Under the pieces are notes generated by a model. That model saw only the letters and a program-made list of their open reading frames with translations. It made no database searches and was not told the DNA's origin. A DNA stretch of 64,000 nt, taken from the NCBI GenBank assembly GCA_035307765.1, contig DATGHU010000026.1, positions 1 to 64,000 on the forward strand, given 5' to 3'. The position numbers and the translations under genes are program-made. Of this stretch, positions 21,877 to 50,997 are shown one piece after another (the stretch's first letter is position 1; each line of letters starts with the position of its first letter). Origin of the DNA: a bacterium (GTDB lineage Bacteria > Sysuimicrobiota > Sysuimicrobiia > Sysuimicrobiales > Segetimicrobiaceae).

Positions 21877-22305
21877 TCAGTTCGGAAGTCGATTGAGCAG
21901 TACCCAGTACAGTCCTAATGACCGCACCGCGTCGCTGAACCGCTGGAAATCGACGGGTTTGACGATGTAGCTGTTGACCCCCAACGCATAGCAGGTTTTC
22001 AAGTCGTGCTCGTCACTCGAGGAGGTCAATATGACGACGGGAATCACCTTCGTCCGCGGATCCGCCTTGATGCGCTGAAGCACTTCGATCCCATCCATCC
22101 GAGGGAGTTTGAGGTCCAGCAGAATCAGCTTCGGACTGCCGTTGCCCTTGCGACCGTTTGGGAAGAGCAATTCTAACGCCTCCGGACCATCTTGGGCGAC
22201 CTGAATGTGATTGGACACGTTGCTCTTCCGAAGCGTCCGGACGGTCATCTCCGCGTGGGCGGGGTTGTCTTCGACCAGCAGGATTTCCATGGGGTCTTCG
22301 ATCAT
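21877..22305 (-). CDS. single-domain response regulator (Rcp1-like)
   Basis: 142 residues; ATG 22305 overlaps the kinase stop as ATGA. A stand-alone receiver: acidic pocket ILLVEDNPAH, phospho-acceptor Asp in LILLDLKLPRMDG, Thr/Ser in VILTSSSDEHDL and Lys in YIVKPVDFQRF. No output domain. This type, with a loop around NHIQVAQDGPEALELLF, is typically partnered with PAS or phytochrome-type histidine kinases and passes phosphate on or signals by protein contact. Confidence 0.93.
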   Translation of the reverse strand: MIEDPMEILLVEDNPAHAEMTVRTLRKSNVSNHIQVAQDGPEALELLFPNGRKGNGSPKLILLDLKLPRMDGIEVLQRIKADPRTKVIPVVILTSSSDEHDLKTCYALGVNSYIVKPVDFQRFSDAVRSLGLYWVLLNRLPN

Positions 22306-23927
22306 CTCTCATCACTCCTCGCAAGGGTGAAGTAGAAGGTGGCTCCCTTTCCGACCTCTCCTTCGGCCCAGACGCGCCCCCCGTGACGGTGGATGACGCG
22401 CTGGACGATCGCCAGTCCCACACCCGTGCCCTCATAGTCCTCCTGGCGGTGTAGGCGCTGAAAGACGTGGAAGAGTTTGTCGGCGTATCGCATCTCGAAC
22501 CCCGCGCCGTTGTCTTTCACGAAGTAGGTGTGAAACGCGGGGTCGCTCAAATCCGGCCGCCACCCGACCTCGATGCGGGCGTCCTCTCGATTGCGGCTGA
22601 ACTTCAGCGCGTTGGAGAGGAGGTTCACATACACCTGTTTGAGCAGCCCGGAATCCGCTCGACACCGCGGCAGGTCGCCGATCCGGATATCCGCCACCCG
22701 TTCCCTTCGCGCCCCGTTGAGCTCGGCCAGGGCGTGGCGGACGACCTCTGCCGGGGAGACCGACTGCTCCTGGATCGGCTGACGGCCGAGACGGGAGAGC
22801 GACAGCAAGTCATTGATGAGGCTCCCCATGTGCTGAGTGCTCACGACGATCTGGTCAATAAGGCGTCGCGCATCCTCCGGAAGGATCGCCGAGTAATCCT
22901 CGGTAAGCATCCGAGAAAAACCGCCGATCGTAATCAGAGGCGATCGCAGATCATGCGCGACCGAGTACGAAAAGGATTCGAGCTCTTGATTCACGCCTTC
23001 AAGCTGCGCCGTCCGCTGACGCACACGCTCCTCCAATTCTCGATTCAGGGCGCGGATTTCGTCCTCTGCCCGCTTGCGCTCGGTGATATCCCGCACGAAC
23101 CCGGTGAAGACAGGCGGTTTGCTCGACGGGTCAACGATGATGCTCAGTTCGACGGGAAACTCCTCGCCCGTGGCGCGGAGCGCGGTCAATTCGGTGCGTT
23201 TACCGAGAACGGGGCCCGTCCCTGTCGTCATGTAGGTGGCGAGCCCCTGACGGTGACGCTCACGAAGGTTTGCAGGGATGATGAGGTCAACCAGCTCGCG
23301 CCCCAGCACGTCACCACGGCGATACCCAAAGGTCGCTTCCGCGGCCGGGTTGAACTCAAGGATCCGCCCGAGGTGATCCATGGTGATGATGCAATCCAGC
23401 GCGCCCTGCAATATGGCCGATTTGCGCGCCTCGCTCTGCTGCAGGGCAAGCCTCGCGTGCTTGCGCTCGGTGATATCCTGAGCCACCACCAAGATCGCGT
23501 GTCGACCGGAGAATTCCAGCGTATGCGAGGTGATGTGCACATCGATCACCTGTCCGTTCTTGAGGCGGTGATGCCATTCGCCGGATGACTGAAGCTCGGG
23601 GCGTTCTTTCGCCACGTTCGCGAGCAGGCGTGGCACCTCATCCTCGGGGCGCAGCTCGGTAATCCGCATCGCCAAAAATTCATCGCGCGAGTACCCATAG
23701 TGGGCGACGGCAGCCCCGTTTACCTCGATAAGCTTGAGGGTCTCAAGATCGTAGACCCACATGGGAAGAGGGTTATTGGCAAACAGCAGCTGGAAGGATT
23801 CCACGGTGCCTCGCAGTGCCACTGATGCGCGCCCCCCCTTATTGTCTGCCGACGGATGAAGCACGAGGATCCGCGTCACCGCGCTCCGGACGATCGATGC
23901 CCCCACCGCTATCCGTAATGCCCGCAT
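22302..23927 (-). CDS. PAS-domain sensor histidine kinase
   Basis: About 541 residues from ATG 23927 (weak ribosome site; a later start is possible since the first ~38 residues look unstructured). Two PAS domains follow: residues ~45-160 (FANNPLPMWVYDLETLKL, GYSRDEFLAM) and ~165-290 (GALDCIITMDHLGRILEFN), each ending in DITERK. Then a coiled coil (RALNRELEERVRQRTAQLEG), the HisKA H-box SYSVAHDLRSPL and the ATPase boxes NLLSNALKFS, VKDNGAGFEM and GTGVGLAIV. No membrane segment is visible, so it is a cytoplasmic sensor. It works with the overlapping response regulator. Confidence 0.93.
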   Translation of the reverse strand: MRALRIAVGASIVRSAVTRILVLHPSADNKGGRASVALRGTVESFQLLFANNPLPMWVYDLETLKLIEVNGAAVAHYGYSRDEFLAMRITELRPEDEVPRLLANVAKERPELQSSGEWHHRLKNGQVIDVHITSHTLEFSGRHAILVVAQDITERKHARLALQQSEARKSAILQGALDCIITMDHLGRILEFNPAAEATFGYRRGDVLGRELVDLIIPANLRERHRQGLATYMTTGTGPVLGKRTELTALRATGEEFPVELSIIVDPSSKPPVFTGFVRDITERKRAEDEIRALNRELEERVRQRTAQLEGVNQELESFSYSVAHDLRSPLITIGGFSRMLTEDYSAILPEDARRLIDQIVVSTQHMGSLINDLLSLSRLGRQPIQEQSVSPAEVVRHALAELNGARRERVADIRIGDLPRCRADSGLLKQVYVNLLSNALKFSRNREDARIEVGWRPDLSDPAFHTYFVKDNGAGFEMRYADKLFHVFQRLHRQEDYEGTGVGLAIVQRVIHRHGGRVWAEGEVGKGATFYFTLARSDER

Positions 23928-42697: not shown

Positions 42698-43311
42698 GAG
42701 TCCGGGCCCTCATCCCACAGAAAGCACTCTTCCGGGCCAAGGGCCGCCTGGGGTCCGTGCTTCCCGAGGAGGAGCGGGCGGCGCTCAGCCTCGCGCTCCT
42801 CAAGTCCATCTGCGGCGTCCTGCGTGCGACGGTGGGGGTGGAGGATGTGGTCGTCATGACCCCGGATCCGGCGGTGCGGGATTTTGCCGCCGCCTGCGGC
42901 GTCCGGGGGATCTTCGACCCCAAGCCGGGCCTGAACGATGCCCTGGCCGAAGCGTTGCGCGTCCTGTCCGGCGCCGGCCGCGGGCTACTCGTTGTGGCCG
43001 GCGATCTTCCATTATTACAGCCGGCGGATGTGGCGGCGGTGCTGGCTTCCGGGGGGGCGGGGACGCTGGTGCTTGCGCCCTCTCGCGATGAGGCGGGGAC
43101 GAACGCCCTGCTGTTTCCCCCGGGCGCGGGCGCTGCGGTGCGCCCCGCCTACGGCCTGGGGAGTCGGCGGGCGCACCACAGCCTTGCGCGGAGGCGGGGA
43201 TTGCGGGTCGTCGAGGTGCACCGGCCGGGCCTCGCCTTCGACCTGGACACGCCGGCCGACCTGGCGGCGCTTGGGGGGCGGTGGGCGCCCGCCCGGCCGT
43301 GGGCCGTTTAG
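42694..43311 (+). CDS. cofC: 2-phospho-L-lactate/phosphoenolpyruvate guanylyltransferase
   Basis: 205 residues from GTG 42694, in a GTGA overlap with cofD. Nucleotidyltransferase fold: VRALIPQKALFRAKGRLGSV, VVVMTPDPAVRDFAAACGV, GLLVVAGDLPLLQPADV and APSRDEAGTNALLFPPG. Activates phospholactate or PEP with GTP for CofD. Its end overlaps that of convergent phoU by 4 bases. Confidence 0.92.
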   Translation: MRVRALIPQKALFRAKGRLGSVLPEEERAALSLALLKSICGVLRATVGVEDVVVMTPDPAVRDFAAACGVRGIFDPKPGLNDALAEALRVLSGAGRGLLVVAGDLPLLQPADVAAVLASGGAGTLVLAPSRDEAGTNALLFPPGAGAAVRPAYGLGSRRAHHSLARRRGLRVVEVHRPGLAFDLDTPADLAALGGRWAPARPWAV

Positions 43312-43967
43312 ACGTTCAGCTCTTTCAGCGTCCCGGTAACCATATAGATCACTCGCTCGGCGATGTTCGTGGCGTGGTCCCCCACCCGTTCCAGGGCCTG
43401 GGCCACCATCAGGAGGTGGGTGGCCCGCTGGATGTTCTTGGGATCTTCGATCATGTAGGTCAGGAGCTCCCGGAAGACCTGCCCGTAGAGATGATCGACC
43501 TCGTCATCCTTGGCGGCCATGCGCTCGGCGAGCGCGGTGTCCCTGCGGACGAACGCGTCGAGGCCGTCGTGGAGCATCTCCCGCACCATCTCCGCCATCC
43601 GGGGAATGTCGATCAAGGGCTTGAGCAGCGGCTGTCCGGCCGCGCGTCGGGTGATCCGGGCGATATCCTCTGCGTGGTCGCCCATGCGCTCGAGATCGAT
43701 CGTCATCGTCCAGATCGCGGCGATCATGCGCAGGTCCTTCGCCATCGGCTGCTGCGTCGCCATCAGGCGCAGGCAGCGTTCTTCCAGTTCGAGGTGCAGG
43801 GCGTCGATGGCGTTGTCGGAGGCGATCACCGTGTTGACGCCATCGAGGCTGCGCGCCTGCAGCGCGTCGACGGCCCGCCGGATCGCGTCGTCGACGAGAT
43901 CGGCCATCCGCAGGAGGTCCTCCTGCAAGTGCTGCAGATCGTGGTCGAAGGTCTCCCGGGTAGTCAT
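43308..43967 (-). CDS. phoU: phosphate transport regulator PhoU
   Basis: 219 residues from ATG 43967. Two PhoU three-helix repeats: DLLRMADLVDDAIRRAVDAL ... TIDLERMGDHAEDIARITRR and FVRRDTALAERMAAKDDEVD ... VAQALERVGDHATNIAERVI, with the metal-binding E-R-x-G-D-H motif in both. PhoU tunes Pst uptake and Pho signalling. It is separated from pstSCAB by about 1.6 kb of small genes and two Pho-box-like repeats. Confidence 0.93.
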   Translation of the reverse strand: MTTRETFDHDLQHLQEDLLRMADLVDDAIRRAVDALQARSLDGVNTVIASDNAIDALHLELEERCLRLMATQQPMAKDLRMIAAIWTMTIDLERMGDHAEDIARITRRAAGQPLLKPLIDIPRMAEMVREMLHDGLDAFVRRDTALAERMAAKDDEVDHLYGQVFRELLTYMIEDPKNIQRATHLLMVAQALERVGDHATNIAERVIYMVTGTLKELNV

Positions 43968-44186: not shown

Positions 44187-44309
44187 TTAGAACTTCAACA
44201 GCGACCTCACACACGCGGCCGCGACCGCAGAGATAACGAGCAACACCCCGGCGATCGTCAGCGCCGCTTTCGCATCCGCGAGCCATCTGGCCTCTTGGTC
44301 CGTGCGCAT
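44187..44309 (-). CDS. small membrane protein, 40 residues
   Basis: From ATG 44309: MRTDQEARWLADAKAALTIA, then a hydrophobic helix (GVLLVISAVAAACV) and RSLLKF. It lies directly downstream of the minus-facing Pho-box-like repeat. Function unknown; it may share a transcript with phoU. Confidence 0.5.
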   Translation of the reverse strand: MRTDQEARWLADAKAALTIAGVLLVISAVAAACVRSLLKF

Positions 44310-44371: not shown

Positions 44372-44410
44372 GTTAACCGGAGGTGAAGGCCGGTTTAAGG
44401 CTGCGTGAAG
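44372..44410 (-). promoter_or_regulatory. Pho-box-like 11-bp repeats facing left (phoU side)
   Basis: On the minus strand four hexamers at exact 11-bp steps: CTTCAC (44410-44405), CTTAAA (44399-44394), CTTCAC (44388-44383), GTTAAC (44377-44372). The direction fits control of the small gene at 44309 and phoU. Confidence 0.65.
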
Positions 44411-44424
44411 CCATCCTCGACATC

Positions 44425-44477
44425 CTTCACCACAGGTTGGCGGGGGCTTCACCTCCCCTTGACCTTGGCCGTATACA
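44425..44477 (+). promoter_or_regulatory. Pho-box-like 11-bp repeats facing right, with -10 element
   Basis: Plus strand: CTTCAC at 44425, a degenerate unit at 44436, CTTCAC at 44447, CTTGAC at 44458, all in 11-bp register, followed eight bases later by TATACA (44472-44477). It precedes the small membrane protein/RNase-H-like pair. Confidence 0.65.
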
Positions 44478-44530
44478 GTAGGGCCAGGACGCAGGGACGT
44501 TCCCGATAGGCCATGATGTGGGAGGGGTGC

Positions 44531-44797
44531 ATGCGCATGCCGCTCCGTCTCGGCCGGGAGGACGTGGCACGGTCTGACCGCTACGCGGCGCGCGCGTCGC
44601 GCGCGGCCGGATCCAAATCCGGGAACGGCCTTTTCGAAGGACGGAGCGGTCCCCGCGGGTGGCTCGCTCCTCCTCCCCCGTCCCCTGGCGCGAGCCTCTG
44701 GCAGCGGTTCACCGACGACCGCGACCTCGTCGGTCTGAAGATCGTGCTGCTTGTGGTCATCGGCATCCTCTCCTCCCTGATTGACCTCGTCAAATGA
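44531..44797 (+). CDS. small protein with C-terminal membrane helix
   Basis: 88 residues from ATG 44531 behind GGGAGGGG. A basic, Pro/Ser-rich N-terminal part (LGREDVARSDRYAARASRAA) ends in one helix, VGLKIVLLVVIGILSSLIDLV. The stop overlaps the next start as ATGA, so translation is coupled. The promoter upstream has Pho-box-like repeats. No family recognised. Confidence 0.65.
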   Translation: MRMPLRLGREDVARSDRYAARASRAAGSKSGNGLFEGRSGPRGWLAPPPPSPGASLWQRFTDDRDLVGLKIVLLVVIGILSSLIDLVK

Positions 44798-45282
44798 CTG
44801 CCAGGGTGGGGGAACTCCACGCTCATGTCGCGGTGATCGACGGTGGGATTCGCGCGGCGATCGGCATCGTGTTCGTCGATGCACACGGTCGCGCGCTGCG
44901 CTGCGTCGGTCGCGTCGTGCCCGGGTGTCCGCGGGATCGTGCGGCGTTCCAGGGCATCCTCCTGGCCCTCTGGAATTCCCGGCGGCTGGGGTCGCGGCGC
45001 GTCGTGGTGCACAGTGACGACCCGGGGGTGGTCGCCCAGATCAATCGCTGCCGGGACGTGCCGCTCGAACTTGTCGGGCCTTACCTCGAAGTCCGCGCCC
45101 TCCTCCACGCCTATCGGAGCGCGCGCGTGGAGGCTGACCAGATCCCGTGGGAACCTGAGGCGGTGTCGGTCGCCCGGGCCGCGTTGGCATCCGGCCTCGC
45201 GGATCAGACGGTGGACGAGCTGCCGCTGTGGACCTGCGCACGCCGGGGTGCCCCTCCGTACGTCGCGCCGGACGGCTCCTAG
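44794..45282 (+). CDS. RNase-H-like fold protein
   Basis: 162 residues, ATG 44794. Pattern of the stand-alone RNase HI-like/RVT_3 group: VAVIDGGIRAAIGIVFVDAH, RDRAAFQGILLALWNS, RRVVVHSDDPGVVAQIN and a C-terminal acidic helix region. The usual D-E-D-D residues are partly present (first Asp in VIDGG, Asp in HSDD), while the Glu position reads Gln (AFQGI), so activity is doubtful. Probably coupled to the membrane protein before it. Confidence 0.65.
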   Translation: MTARVGELHAHVAVIDGGIRAAIGIVFVDAHGRALRCVGRVVPGCPRDRAAFQGILLALWNSRRLGSRRVVVHSDDPGVVAQINRCRDVPLELVGPYLEVRALLHAYRSARVEADQIPWEPEAVSVARAALASGLADQTVDELPLWTCARRGAPPYVAPDGS

Positions 45283-45537: not shown

Positions 45538-46377
45538 TTAACCAAACCGCCCCGTGATGTAGTCTTCCGTCCGCTTGTCCCGCGGCCGCGTGAACAGCTC
45601 GGCCGTGGGCCCAAACTCCACCAGTTCTCCGGTGAGCATGAAGGCCGTGCTGTCCGAGACGCGCGCCGCCTGCTGCATGTTGTGGGTGACGAGCACGATC
45701 GTCAAGCGCTCGCGCAACACCCTGGCCAGTTCCTCGATCTTCAGGGTGGACCCCGGATCGAGCGCGGACGCCGGCTCGTCCATCAGCAGGACCTCCGGCT
45801 TCACCGCCAGCGCGCGAGCGATGCAGAGCCGTTGTTGCTGCCCCCCGGAGAGACTGGCGCCGGGTCGGCCGAGCACATCCTTGACCTCCTCCCACAGGGC
45901 CGCCTGTCGAAGGCTTTGTTCTACCACCTCATCGAGAAGCTTTCGTTGGCGGACGCCGTTCAATCGGAGGCCCGCGGCCACGTTGTCATAGATCGACATG
46001 GTGGGAAACGGATTCGGCCGCTGGAAGACCATGCCGACGCGGCGCCGGATCATCACGGGATCGATCTCCTTCGCGTAGATGTCCTCGCCGTCGAGCAGCA
46101 CCTGCCCCTCGACACGCGCGCCCGAGATCAGTTCGTGCATGCGATTGAGGCAGCGGAGGAACGTCGACTTGCCGCAACCCGACGGTCCAATGATCGCGGT
46201 GATGCGGTTGGCTTGGACACCGATCGAGACCCCGCGGACGGCATGGGTGCGGCCAAAGTAGGCGTTCACCCGCACGGCCTGGATGCGCTGGGTGCCGACC
46301 CCCTCGACGGGCACCGAGCGCTCGAGGGCGCCCAGAAGCGCCCGACTCCACAGCGTGGCGCTCGACGTCTGCATCAT
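45538..46377 (-). CDS. pstB: phosphate ABC transporter ATP-binding protein
   Basis: 279 residues from ATG 46377 (or 46374), behind GGGGGGAGGT which overlaps the pstA stop. Walker [38 protein letters not shown], signature [15 protein letters not shown], Walker [14 protein letters not shown] and switch [12 protein letters not shown], typical PstB. Energises phosphate uptake. Last gene of pstSCAB. Confidence 0.97.
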
Positions 46378-46382
46378 CACGG

Positions 46383-47237
46383 TTACCTCCCCCCGGATCG
46401 CGACCGGCCCACGAGCCGGGCGGCGATGTTGAGCAAGAGCGTCATCGACATGAGCACCAGCGCTGCGGCCCACGCCTGACGGTGCCAGTCGTCGTATGGG
46501 GCGATCGCATAGTTATAGAGCTGGACCGTCAGCGACGCGATCGGCTGATCGAGCCCCGTCTGCCAGTACTGGTTGTTGAAGGCGGTGAAGAGTAGCGGTG
46601 CCGTCTCTCCTCCGATGCGGGCGATGGCCAGCATGACGCCGGTGATGATCCCCACGGCCGCCGTCCGCAACACCACGCGCACGGTGGTGAGCCACCAGGG
46701 GACACCCAGGGCAAGCGCCGCCTCGCGGAGTGACGTCGGCACGAGGCGAACGAGTTCCTCGGTCGTCCGCATCACCAGCGGGGCCATCATGATCCCCAGG
46801 GCGGCCCCGCCGGCGATGGCGGAGAAGCGCCGCATCGGGACCACGAGGAGCGTATAGACAAAAACGCCGACGACGATGCTGGGCACGCCGTTCAACACGT
46901 CGGCCGTGAACCGGATCCACCAGCCGAGGGGGCCGTCTCCCAGCTCGGACAGATACAACCCTCCCAGGATGCCGATGGGGAGGCCGACGCACGACGCCAG
47001 CAGGATGAGCGTGAGGGTGCCGCTGATCGCGTTCGCAACCCCCCCGCCCGTCTCCCCCACCGGCTTGGGGAGCTGGGTGAAGAACGCCCAGTCGAGCGAC
47101 GTGGCGCCCTGCAGGACCACGTAGATCAGCACGCTGACGAGGGGGGCGAGCGCGATCAGCACCGCGGCGGCCGCGAGCCCCGTCATCAGGCGGTCCGTGG
47201 CGCGACGGCGTGCCGCGGTAGCCGGAAAGACGAGCAT
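46383..47237 (-). CDS. pstA: phosphate ABC transporter permease PstA
   Basis: 284 residues from ATG 47237, whose A is the last base of the pstC stop (TGATG). Six helices; [39 protein letters not shown], the coupling loop [20 protein letters not shown] and [20 protein letters not shown] are PstA hallmarks. Confidence 0.96.
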
Positions 47238-48226
47238 CACCCCATCCCTCCCGTCGGCAGGGTCCCCATCCGCCAGATGAGCCAACGGGCGATCGCATTG
47301 ACAATCAAGGAGATCACAAAGAGGACAACCGCCAGTTCGATCAGCGCGGAGATGTAGATGCCGGTGGTGGCCTCCGAGAACTCGTTGGCGAGCGCCGCGG
47401 CGATCGTGTACGCGGGCTGAAACAACGAGGGTGACACCTGCGGGCGGTTGCCGATCACCATGGTCACGGCCATCGTCTCGCCGAGGGCGCGTCCCAGGCC
47501 GAGGATCACCGCCCCGGTGAGGCCGGTCCGGCCGTATGGGAGGACGGCGCGCCAGATCACCTCCCAGCGGGTGGCCCCGAGGGCGTAGGCGGCCTCACGC
47601 TGGCTCAGCGGCACCGACTTCAGCACCTCGCGCGAGATCGACGAGACGATGGGCAGGAGCATGATCGCCAGGATCATCCCGCCGGCGAGCAACCCGATCC
47701 CGTACGCAGGGCCGCTGAACAGCGGCAGCCACCCCAGAATCGCCCGGAGGTCGGGCTCCACGACGCTGCGCAGCCAGGGGGCCATGACGAAAATCCCCCA
47801 GAGGCCGAGGATGACGCTCGGGATGGACGCCAGAAGCTCGATGATGAACCCGAGCACCGTCGACAGCACCGGCGGAGCCAACTCCGCCAGATAGATGGCC
47901 ACGCCAAGGCTCACCGGGACCGCAAGGACCAAGGCCACCAGCGAAGAGGCGAGGGTCCCGTACGCGAACGTGACCGCCCCGAAGACGTTGTGGACCGGAT
48001 CCCACCGCTGCGTCCAGAGGAACCCCGCCCCAAAACGCGCAATCGCCGGCCAGGCCGCCATGGATAATTGGATGATCATCGAGGCGACGATGACCACGAC
48101 CGCAAACCCGAACGCGGTCAACACGGCGCGAAACACCGCGTCCGTCCAGGCCTTGTGGCGCCGCACGAACGCGGCGCCGGGAGGCAGGAGGGCCTCCGCC
48201 CTCCTGCCGACGTTCGAGGGAAGCAT
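47237..48226 (-). CDS. pstC: phosphate ABC transporter permease PstC
   Basis: 329 residues from ATG 48226, 18 bases after pstS. Hallmarks: FGAVTFAYGTLASSLVALVL, LLASIPSVILGLWGIFVMAP, SQREAAYALGATRWEVIWRA and GRALGETMAVTMVIGNRPQ. A perfect 11-bp inverted repeat (GGCAGGAGGGC with GCCCTCCTGCC, 48183-48208) lies within codons 6-15 and may lower permease expression relative to pstS. Confidence 0.96.
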   Translation of the reverse strand: MLPSNVGRRAEALLPPGAAFVRRHKAWTDAVFRAVLTAFGFAVVVIVASMIIQLSMAAWPAIARFGAGFLWTQRWDPVHNVFGAVTFAYGTLASSLVALVLAVPVSLGVAIYLAELAPPVLSTVLGFIIELLASIPSVILGLWGIFVMAPWLRSVVEPDLRAILGWLPLFSGPAYGIGLLAGGMILAIMLLPIVSSISREVLKSVPLSQREAAYALGATRWEVIWRAVLPYGRTGLTGAVILGLGRALGETMAVTMVIGNRPQVSPSLFQPAYTIAAALANEFSEATTGIYISALIELAVVLFVISLIVNAIARWLIWRMGTLPTGGMG

Positions 48227-48244: not shown

Positions 48245-49339
48245 CTACGGCGCGGGAAGGAAGGCGTGGCCTTGATACCCGATGGTCTTGATGATGCGCT
48301 CGTCGATCAGCACCACCGGCGCGGGCAGTGGAGCATACAGGAGCTGGGGGGCGTCTTTTTCCCCGTCATGAATCGCCCACCAGAGGAAATCCGTCAGGGC
48401 CTTGCCCTTCGATTCGTCCGTCTGTTCCTTGGGGATCAGCAGGTAGGTGAACCCGGCGATCGGATACGTGGTCGCTCCAGGCGAGTAGGCGATCGAGACC
48501 CGGACATCGTTGGTCTTGACCATGGCGTCGGCGCCGCCGGCGGCGGCCGCGGTCGTGGCGGACAGGGAGGGGGCGATCCATGCGCCCGACCGGTTCCTGA
48601 CGACCGCGTACGTGAGTTGGTTCTGCACCACGTACGCCAGTTCAACGTACCCGATCCCTCCCGGGGTCTGCTTGACCAGCCCCGAGACCCCCTCGTTGCC
48701 CTTGCCGCCGATCCCGGTCGGCCATTCCACGGATGTGCTGCGCCCGACCTTGTCGGCCCAGCCCCTGCTGACGATCGAGAGGAAGGAGGTGAAGTGGAAG
48801 GTCGTGCCGCTGCCGTCCGATCGGTGCACGATCGTAACCGGCAGGTTCGGCAGCTTCACGGATGGGTTGTTGGCGGCGAGGCGCGGATCGTTCCACTTGG
48901 TGATCTGCCCCATGTAGAGATCGGCGATGTTTTCCGGCGTCAGACGCAACCCCGAGCCGACCCCCGGAACGTTGTAGCTCATCGCGATCGACCCGGCGAC
49001 GGTGGGGATCAGCGCGACGGGCCGTCCCATCGCCTTCAACTGGTCATCGGAGAGCGGGGCATCCGAGGCGCCGAAGTCCACGGTGCCCTTCTGCACCTGC
49101 GCGATCCCACCGCCGCTGCCAATCGATTGGTAGTTGATGCGGACATCCGGGTGGAGCCGATTGTACTCGGCGAACCACCGGGAGTAGATCGGATATGGAA
49201 ACGTGGCGCCCGCCCCGGTGAGCACAATCGGTCCCGCGGCGACCGCGCCGGTGGTCCCCCACGGCAACCCACCCGGGCCGAGGATCAGTCCGGCGAGGAC
49301 CGCGCCTGCGATCCAGCGCCATCGTCGAGCCATCTTCAT
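48245..49339 (-). CDS. pstS: phosphate-binding protein PstS
   Basis: 364 residues from ATG 49339 (AAGGAGGG). Signal peptide to about residue 35 (GTTGAVAAG), no lipobox. Binding motifs: LTGAGATFPYPIYSRWFAEY, NYQSIGSGGGIAQVQKGTVD, GASDAPLSDDQL, RSDGSGTTFHFTSFL, KGNEGVSGLVKQTPGGIGYV. Head of pstSCAB, with Pho-box-like repeats about 100 bases upstream. Confidence 0.97.
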   Translation of the reverse strand: MKMARRWRWIAGAVLAGLILGPGGLPWGTTGAVAAGPIVLTGAGATFPYPIYSRWFAEYNRLHPDVRINYQSIGSGGGIAQVQKGTVDFGASDAPLSDDQLKAMGRPVALIPTVAGSIAMSYNVPGVGSGLRLTPENIADLYMGQITKWNDPRLAANNPSVKLPNLPVTIVHRSDGSGTTFHFTSFLSIVSRGWADKVGRSTSVEWPTGIGGKGNEGVSGLVKQTPGGIGYVELAYVVQNQLTYAVVRNRSGAWIAPSLSATTAAAAGGADAMVKTNDVRVSIAYSPGATTYPIAGFTYLLIPKEQTDESKGKALTDFLWWAIHDGEKDAPQLLYAPLPAPVVLIDERIIKTIGYQGHAFLPAP

Positions 49340-49435: not shown

Positions 49436-49463
49436 GTGAAGGGGAGGTTAAGAGAGTGTTAAG
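49436..49463 (-). promoter_or_regulatory. Pho-box-like 11-bp repeats upstream of pstS
   Basis: Minus strand: CTTAAC (49463-49458), CTTAAC (49452-49447), CTTCAC (49441-49436), exact 11-bp steps. It overlaps the last codons of mgsA. The unit resembles cyanobacterial-type CTTAAC Pho boxes. Confidence 0.8.
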
Positions 49464-49932
49464 CGTACGCAGGCACGAGCCGCTGGTACTCGTGGGCCAT
49501 GAGTGGGGAGGAGATCATGAAGTCCGCCGAGGCGCGGTTGCAGGCCACCGGGATGTTCCACACCACCGCGATCCGAAGCAGCGCCCGGACATCGGGGTCG
49601 TGCGGATGCGGCTCGAGCGGGTCCCAAAAGAAGATCAGGAAATCGACGCCGCCCTCCGCGATCTTCGCTCCGATCTGCTGATCGCCTCCCAACGGCCCGC
49701 TGTGAAACTCGGCGACCGGAAGGCCGAGGCGCTCGGCGATGAGCCGACCGGTGGTGCGCGTCGCGCACAATTCGTGGCGCGCCAGAAGCTCCTTGTTGAA
49801 CCGGACCCACTCCAGAAGATCGGTCTTCTTATTGTCGTGCGCAATCAGGGCGATGCGCTTGGCGGCCAACATCGGCACCGGCGTCCGCGGAGCAAAGGCA
49901 CGCGGGGACAACGTCTGCGGCGCTGAACTCAT
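49459..49932 (-). CDS. mgsA: methylglyoxal synthase
   Basis: 157 residues from ATG 49932 (AGGGG upstream). MgsA motifs: [76 protein letters not shown]. Converts DHAP to methylglyoxal plus phosphate; the known enzymes are inhibited by phosphate. Here it lies between pstS and the DUF47 regulator gene and has its own Pho-box-like repeat, which suggests induction in phosphate limitation to release phosphate from triose-phosphate. Confidence 0.95.
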
Positions 49933-49989
49933 CACACACCCCTATCCGTCGCCCGACTGGCGGCGACGGCTCGAGCCTACGCGCCGGAC

Positions 49990-50017
49990 GTCAACGCGAG
50001 GTGAAGGGCCGGTGAAG
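49990..50017 (-). promoter_or_regulatory. Pho-box-like 11-bp repeats upstream of mgsA
   Basis: Minus strand: CTTCAC (50017-50012), CTTCAC (50006-50001), GTTGAC (49995-49990), exact 11-bp steps, between the DUF47 gene stop and mgsA start. Confidence 0.7.
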
Positions 50018-50040: not shown

Positions 50041-50997
50041 CTACGGCCGCGCGTCCAGGCGGTAGCCGATCCCGCGCACGGCGGTGATGCGCACCCCGCC
50101 CTTGGGTTCCACCTTCTTGCGCAGCCAGGCGACATGGGTGTCGAGGGTGCGGGTGTCGCCGAAATAATCGTCCCCCCACACATCCTGCATCAGCCGCTCG
50201 CGGCGGACGATCTTGCCCAGGTGGCGCAGCAGCAGGTGCAGGAGGTCGAACTCCTTGGTGGCCAAGGGCACGCCCTCCCCCGCCACCGTCACCGTGCGCT
50301 CGGCGATGTTCATCACCAACTGGTTGGCGAGGAGCCGGTCCTCCGCCCCCGCCTGCACGACAATCGTCTCCAGGATGTTCGCGATGTCCTCACACCGGTC
50401 GGTCATGGCCTCAAGGTTCTCGCAGATGTCCTTCCATTTAATGATCTCCTTGGCGCTGGCCCGCCCCGAGAACAACCGCTCGATCACCTCCCGCAGCAGG
50501 TCGTCCCCGCGGTTCTCCAGGTTGTGCAGCGCGCGGGTGTGCGGGAACACGTCGTGCATCCCCTTGAGCTGGCCGATCGCCTTCGCCAGCTCTTGGGCGG
50601 ACTCGAAGACGTTCCGGCCCATCTCGCGCGCCGACGGGAGCACGCGCTTCACTCGGTGAATCGCCAACCGCGCCGCGGCCGCCTCGATGGCGTCGAGCAC
50701 GTCGTCGAGATACCCCGTCAGGGCGCGGAGGGACTCGGTGCTGAACGGGAGGGCGCCGCCGGTCGTCGTGGCCTCGAAGAGGTCTCGGGCGATCGCATCG
50801 CCCGTGTGTTCCAGATCGCGAATCCGCTGCCAGGCCTCGGTCGAGGAGAGACGTCCGTCGAGCATCGACCCAAGCGTCCGGGCCGCCTCCAAGATGCTCC
50901 CGGCCAGTTCCTCCAGGAGCGTGATCGGATATTGAGACGCGCCGGCGGGCGGGGTGTCGGGTTGCGGTGGTCGGCGATCGGGTCCCATGGCCAGCAT
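50041..50997 (-). CDS. fusion of PhoU-like DUF47 domain with OmpR/PhoB winged-helix DNA-binding domain
   Basis: 318 residues from ATG 50997 (alternative ATG 50988). Residues ~25-225 are a DUF47/PhoU-like helical domain (LEELAGSILEAARTLGSML, RIRDLEHTGDAIARDLFEAT, ALHNLENRGDDLLREVIERL, NLEAMTDRCEDIANILETIV), the type that accompanies Pit phosphate transporters. Residues ~228-316 are a PhoB-type winged helix: VPLATKEFDLLHLLLRHLGK, RLMQDVWGDDYFGDTRTLD, THVAWLRKKVEPKGG and ITAVRGIGYRLD. There is no receiver domain. The frame is continuous and both halves look intact. A phosphate-responsive one-component transcription factor is inferred. It is the first gene of the mgsA-pstSCAB strand run. Confidence 0.9.
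   Translation of the reverse strand: MLAMGPDRRPPQPDTPPAGASQYPITLLEELAGSILEAARTLGSMLDGRLSSTEAWQRIRDLEHTGDAIARDLFEATTTGGALPFSTESLRALTGYLDDVLDAIEAAAARLAIHRVKRVLPSAREMGRNVFESAQELAKAIGQLKGMHDVFPHTRALHNLENRGDDLLREVIERLFSGRASAKEIIKWKDICENLEAMTDRCEDIANILETIVVQAGAEDRLLANQLVMNIAERTVTVAGEGVPLATKEFDLLHLLLRHLGKIVRRERLMQDVWGDDYFGDTRTLDTHVAWLRKKVEPKGGVRITAVRGIGYRLDARP

Follow-up and report, generated by a model that had tools for sequence, protein, structure and literature searches.

We found that an uncultured soil bacterium of the phylum Sysuimicrobiota (CSP1-3) encodes, at its pst locus, a protein in which a DUF47 (PhoU_div) domain and an OmpR/PhoB-type winged helix are joined on one receiver-free chain, which is a new combination of known domains. 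The gene was analyzed in a window of 64,000 nucleotides (the whole stretch of DNA under study) from a genome of 51 contigs (3.82 Mb, 96% complete), and was compared with 43 Sysuimicrobiota genomes, the sequences being derived from metagenome-assembled genomes. Judging from sequence comparison, the fusion probably acts as a one-component activator of pst and mgsA that works like PhoB but is gated by DUF47 instead of being phosphorylated. A broader proposal is that this lineage dropped PhoR-PhoB at pst and that a PhoU/PitR-family domain came to gate a PhoB-type DNA-binding domain, with direct signaling from transporter to promoter and with its own altered Pho-box letters; we regard the chances for and against it as roughly balanced. 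The way in which PhoU-type proteins sense the state of Pst and transmit it is a long-standing question, and model bacteria interpose a kinase and a response regulator. If the proposal is true, a PhoU-superfamily domain would be wired directly to a DNA-binding domain, so that in vitro binding to DNA would report its signal; the best-known nutrient two-component system would prove able to do without its phosphorelay; and the PitR clade, previously known in connection with PiT, would be tied to Pst.

Fusion protein and layout of the pst locus

The fusion frame comprises 318 codons with no internal stops, in agreement with the preliminary description, which had also proposed an N-terminal DUF47 domain, a complete C-terminal winged helix and the absence of a receiver. 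The domain search suggested there recovered both domains above their curated Pfam cut-offs: PF01865 at residues 27-214 (1e-19; 71.2 bits against a cut-off of 24.4) and PF00486 (Trans_reg_C) at residues 240-314 (3e-25; 88.5 bits against 26.2), while the receiver profile PF00072 gave no match along the chain. Such an architecture, with a sensor-type and a DNA-binding domain on one chain, is that of one-component regulators. The AlphaFold2 model (alignment of ten; pLDDT 88, pTM 0.81) contained six DUF47 helices (23-215), a linker of about five residues and a winged helix starting with a strand at 221. Foldseek matched the DUF47 half to 3l39 (TM 0.86 by target, 27% identity) as well as to 2olt and 2iiu, and the C-terminal half to the DNA-binding domains of YycF, PhoB and PhoP (PhoB effector domain 1gxq, TM 0.82 by target). 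The acidic motifs of DUF47 (E63xxxD67, D98D99xxD102, E161xxxD165, E196xxxD200 and E203D204) were invariant in 19 homologues; in the aligned winged helices W274, G275 and the recognition helix RTLDTHxxWLR were invariant, as was much of the core.

Comparison with known proteins revealed likenesses and differences on both sides of the chain. First, the fusion has the six-helix fold and the acidic motifs of PitR/DUF47 proteins (S. aureus PitR; 3L39 of B. thetaiotaomicron), but PitR is a stand-alone protein encoded beside pitA in nearly all genomes with both (PMC13170248), whereas the fusion has a DNA-binding domain attached and occurs with Pst and no PiT. Second, it shares a broad superfamily and the operon context with the PhoU (PF01895) of pst operons; however, PF01895 did not match the fusion, and its match in the window was only the separate, ordinary PhoU of the locus. 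Finally, its winged helix is near those of RegX3, WalR and PhoB, and the tandem 11-bp boxes over the -35 position are likewise those of the PhoB/PhoP/RegX3 family, whose members have a receiver, a phospho-acceptor aspartate and a partner kinase, all three of which the fusion lacks at its locus.

Table 1. Features of the pst locus and its promoters in the window
Feature	Position	Strand	Basis or remark
Fusion gene, DUF47 (PhoU_div)-winged helix	50041..50997	minus	318 aa, receiver-free
DUF47/PhoU_div part	50356..50919	minus	Pfam PF01865 and invariant acidic motifs
OmpR/PhoB-type winged helix	50056..50280	minus	Pfam PF00486 and conserved core
Pho box array CTTCACCGGCC CTTCACCTCGC GTTGAC, three 11-bp units	49990..50017	minus	mgsA promoter; -10 TAGGCT at +16
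mgsA, methylglyoxal synthase	49459..49935	minus	NCBIfam PRK05234/TIGR00160, above cut-off
Pho box array CTTAACACTCT CTTAACCTCCC CTTCAC	49436..49463	minus	pstS promoter
pstS	48245..49339	minus	TIGR00975, above cut-off
pstC	47237..48226	minus	TIGR02138, above cut-off
pstA	46383..47285	minus	TIGR00974, above cut-off
pstB	45538..46473	minus	TIGR00972, above cut-off
Pho box array	44425..44463	plus	-10 TACAGT at +16; reads towards 44513-45282
Pho box array, four units	44372..44410	minus	-10 TACGCT at +16; reads towards 40-codon frame and phoU
phoU, ordinary two-domain PhoU	43308..43967	minus	PF01895

The minus-strand gene order is fusion, mgsA, pstS, pstC, pstA and pstB, followed by a 1.5-kb stretch with plus-strand frames and then by phoU; together with the NCBIfam matches it confirms that the fusion heads an mgsA-pstSCAB strand run, as had been described. 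Between pstB and phoU, a 40-codon minus-strand frame (start at 44309, stop ending at 44187) with a hydrophobic segment is faced by a Pho-box promoter, and the opposite Pho-box promoter faces a 94-codon plus-strand frame (44513-44797) that has a hydrophobic segment and no Pfam match; both could possibly encode phosphate-controlled small membrane proteins. The end of the 94-codon frame is overlapped by an RNase H-like frame (PF13456; 44794-45282, plus strand), which is perhaps under the same promoter. The insert with the RNase H-like frame is missing from one relative (G030), in which pstB adjoins phoU.

Occurrence in Sysuimicrobiota and exchange with PhoB-PhoR

The full-length fusion was present in 19 of the 43 genomes (57-76% identity across 291-316 residues), so that homologues do share it, a point that had been left for checking. 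Because the same frame occurs in 19 independent genomes, a frameshift or assembly artifact was ruled out. Outside the phylum, none of 343 sampled bacterial genomes, mostly from different families, contained a complete fusion, and only one-half matches were found. In a collection of 84,980 species genomes, a single-sequence pattern scan for the fusion gave no match, and an alignment-based scan gave full-length matches solely in records matching Sysuimicrobiota genomes, with two peptide patterns that fusions bearing another winged helix could escape. No description of a DUF47-winged-helix protein was found in the open-access literature, and PhoU, pstS and two-component systems are absent from the main text of the paper naming the phylum. 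Only partial fusions were observed in genus g16, one at a contig end (L069 in G017) and one with the DUF47 part missing (L070 in G018), and pst was unmatched in both genomes; these may reflect decay following pst loss, or assembly limits.

Analysis of gene neighborhoods revealed a close association with pst. First, all 19 genomes with the full fusion had pst, compared with 12 of the 24 genomes without it (Fisher p = 3e-4). Second, the fusion lay at pst in 15 genomes, directly before pstS or mgsA-pstS in 12 and elsewhere at the locus in three more; one of the remaining four was beside phoU, and the other three (genus g3) were unlinked to pst. Third, the fusion was missing from two genera belonging to the same family, g2 and g4, where pstSCAB-phoU instead has a receiver-winged-helix regulator and a PAS-HisKA kinase at its head or close to it; a regulator-kinase pair was also present at pst in genus g3 and in two genomes of family f5. 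Finally, the fusion and PhoB-PhoR were never found together at a single pst locus among the Sysuimicrobiota surveyed. This distribution supports the view that the fusion takes the place held at pst by the PhoB-PhoR pair in sister genera. However, in the three g3 genomes the fusion lies away from pst while PhoB-PhoR is there, so that it is no substitute in this genus, which counts against the model.

The unlinked fusions of g3, of which that of G028 is beside mgsA, and the conserved acidic motifs of metal type would also fit a DUF47 half that senses something else, such as a divalent metal or a flux related to methylglyoxal, with a pst linkage that is regulatory only. Given that 15 of the 19 fusions are at pst and that full fusions occur only in pst-bearing genomes, we consider such a signal very improbable.

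A further point against a one-component Pst regulator is that known DUF47 proteins work with PiT rather than Pst (PMC13170248), and the stand-alone DUF47 genes of Sysuimicrobiota were likewise located beside PiT in nearly all cases. The host genome contains no PiT (no PF01384 match) and no second DUF47, and the DUF47 half of its fusion therefore cannot serve PiT; a role as PiT partner was thus ruled out for this genome. In one relative (L073, G029:C63), PiT, DUF47, PhoB, kinase and pstSCAB genes form one strand run, in which the DUF47 frame ends 35 bp ahead of the PhoB frame. Origin of the fusion by simple deletion of the receiver from the DUF47-PhoB gene pair of g2/g4 was unsupported, since the fusion winged helices fell outside the corresponding PhoB clade in a weak tree of 102 columns with long branches, and since the DUF47 of that pair is 31-35% identical.

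Pho-box arrays and promoter geometry

The preliminary description had reported 11-bp repeats at four promoters (Table 1), and both their counts and their fixed geometry bore them out as Pho boxes, which are composed of two 11-nt units (PMC4415409). CTTMAC-N5-CTTMAC with one mismatch occurred eight times in the window versus 0.22 expected, and of the five exact matches genome-wide, three were located in the pstS and mgsA promoters. A scan of 620 kb of DNA (pst-related, DUF47-related and the window) for three-unit arrays with at most one mismatch yielded 44 overlapping matches, equal to 33 distinct arrays, versus none in the reversed-letter control, and most of the 33 preceded pstS, mgsA or the fusion gene; a closely similar array pattern gave 98 matches in all 43 genomes versus 12 in the control. 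Chance repeats were ruled out by the expected counts and the reversed-letter control. The genome-wide two-unit pattern with one mismatch was no better than its control (29 versus 24), and the argument is therefore confined to arrays of at least three units. In four species of the host genus, the pstS promoters were poorly alignable outside the block CTTAACAC-N-CT-CTTAAC-N5-CTTSACC-N4-CATCGCA, and the array at 49436-49463 is the chief conserved element of this promoter.

The -10 element was placed with similar regularity. TANNNT followed the start of the last unit by exactly 16 bp in 18 of the 33 arrays and appeared at +16, +27 or +38, i.e., in 11-bp phase, in 27, compared with seven for the remaining offsets from +6 to +39 combined. 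This spacing is that of a class-II activator and matches promoters whose -35 position is overlapped by PhoB (PMC3348028). The geometry also bears on the sign of regulation. PhoU (PMC4415409) and PitR (PMC13170248) are negative regulators in studied bacteria, and sequence does not give the sign of action; the fusion might accordingly repress its targets when phosphate is abundant, or regulate Pst transport structurally, its winged helix serving only as a tether. Boxes at -35 with a fixed -10 spacing, however, form an activator-dependent layout, and the sigma-contact residues are kept, W184/G185 of PhoB (PMC3348028) corresponding in the alignment to the invariant W274/G275 of the fusion. We therefore regard a repressor or tether as improbable, and activation remains our preferred reading.

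Some observations on the arrays count against this model: no Pho array precedes the fusion gene of the host genome, and one fusion genome (G041) has no clear array at pst. In some relatives a Pho array also precedes the fusion gene. Where pst has PhoB-PhoR beside it, 19 of the 21 units carried A at position 4, as did none of 30 units of fusion genomes outside the host genus (C or G in 29) and 10 of 27 units of the host genus, in a comparison of hand-picked arrays that are related by descent and hence not a statistical test. These letters are suggestive of different proteins owning the boxes in PhoB-PhoR and fusion genomes. The Pho boxes of cyanobacteria (CTTAAC type) and Streptomyces (GTTCACC type) are repeats bound by phosphorylated SphR/PhoP. 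They are 11-bp direct repeats with letters closely similar to those of the arrays here, but their binder is a response regulator, whereas the likely binder of the present arrays is not one.

Proposed working and other regulators of the genome

We propose that the winged helix would bind, in head-to-tail order, the tandem 11-bp boxes that immediately precede the -10 element at pstS, mgsA, two further promoters and, in some relatives, the promoter of the fusion itself. Activation would be PhoB-like, through contact of W274/G275 with sigma at the -35 position. With ample phosphate, the DUF47 domain in the receiver's place would hold the winged helix inactive, probably through an interaction with PhoU or the Pst transporter, or through phosphate or metal binding; falling Pst transport or cytoplasmic phosphate would release the winged helix and turn the genes on. 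A sensible target is mgsA, given that methylglyoxal synthase releases phosphate from triose phosphate and is inhibited by phosphate. In this scheme we infer that the fusion binds the boxes, that its effect is positive, that the DUF47 half has such a ligand or partner and that no kinase would be needed. According to Ellison and McCleary (2000), as cited in PMC4415409, DNA binding by PhoB becomes constitutive once the receiver is removed; the winged helix would thus need only a gate, and DUF47 is most likely that gate. E. coli PhoU contacts PstB and PhoR (Gardner et al., 2014, as cited in PMC4415409), and in S. aureus the output of PhoPR is under the control of PitR, a DUF47 protein that stands alone (PMC13170248).

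The preliminary description had stated that the window contains no PhoB or PhoR kinase. No PF00486 match other than the fusion was found in the window, in line with the first part; the second part needs qualification, since a 142-aa receiver-like frame followed by a HisKA kinase (21877-23927, minus strand) is present, for which no link to pst or to phosphate was observed. A check of the whole genome for phoR/phoB, also suggested there, gave a similarly divided answer. The genome encodes seven PF00486 proteins, namely the fusion and six full response regulators, each adjoining a kinase. None of these regulators belonged to the PhoB clade of the relatives (winged-helix tree, 102 columns), no HisKA kinase was found at the pst locus and none of the six pairs is located there; on the other hand, all six pairs are complete, and the WalK/PnpS/PhoR-like kinase on contig C31 scored just below the cut-offs for PnpS (388.9 bits versus 400) and PhoR (291 versus 334).

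Of the six pairs, that on C31 most resembles PhoPR/WalRK. Its regulator formed a separate clade in the tree, and most Sysuimicrobiota genomes contain close relatives of it (66-88% identity), whether or not they have pst, the fusion or PhoB-PhoR; on these comparisons it is most plausibly WalR-like, although a role in phosphate regulation is possible. An ordinary response regulator, either this one with its kinase or those on C22, C32 or C34, might bind the boxes, with the fusion as an accessory that competes for them or tunes Pst, as PhoU/PitR do on PhoR. The near-threshold scores of the C31 kinase, the presence of its regulator across the phylum and similar TTCAC arrays near the C32 regulator and related regulators elsewhere in the phylum favor this explanation. 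However, the C31 regulator occurs irrespective of pst, PhoB-PhoR and fusion, as expected for a WalR-type housekeeping regulator, no pair lies at pst, and the box letters differ between PhoB-PhoR and fusion genomes though both keep C31. Therefore, binding by a response regulator appears unlikely, and a DUF47-gated activator is preferred; with six two-component pairs in the genome, cross-regulation of these promoters by a kinase is possible.

A second set of 11-bp arrays, with ATTCAC, GTTCAC or TTTCAC units, was observed at G000:C32:109761-109788, G032:C77:9357-9384, G029:C6:71385-71412 and G018:C129:8023-8061. Other OmpR-type regulators are encoded no more than about 1.2 kb away, and these arrays are perhaps their autoregulatory sites.
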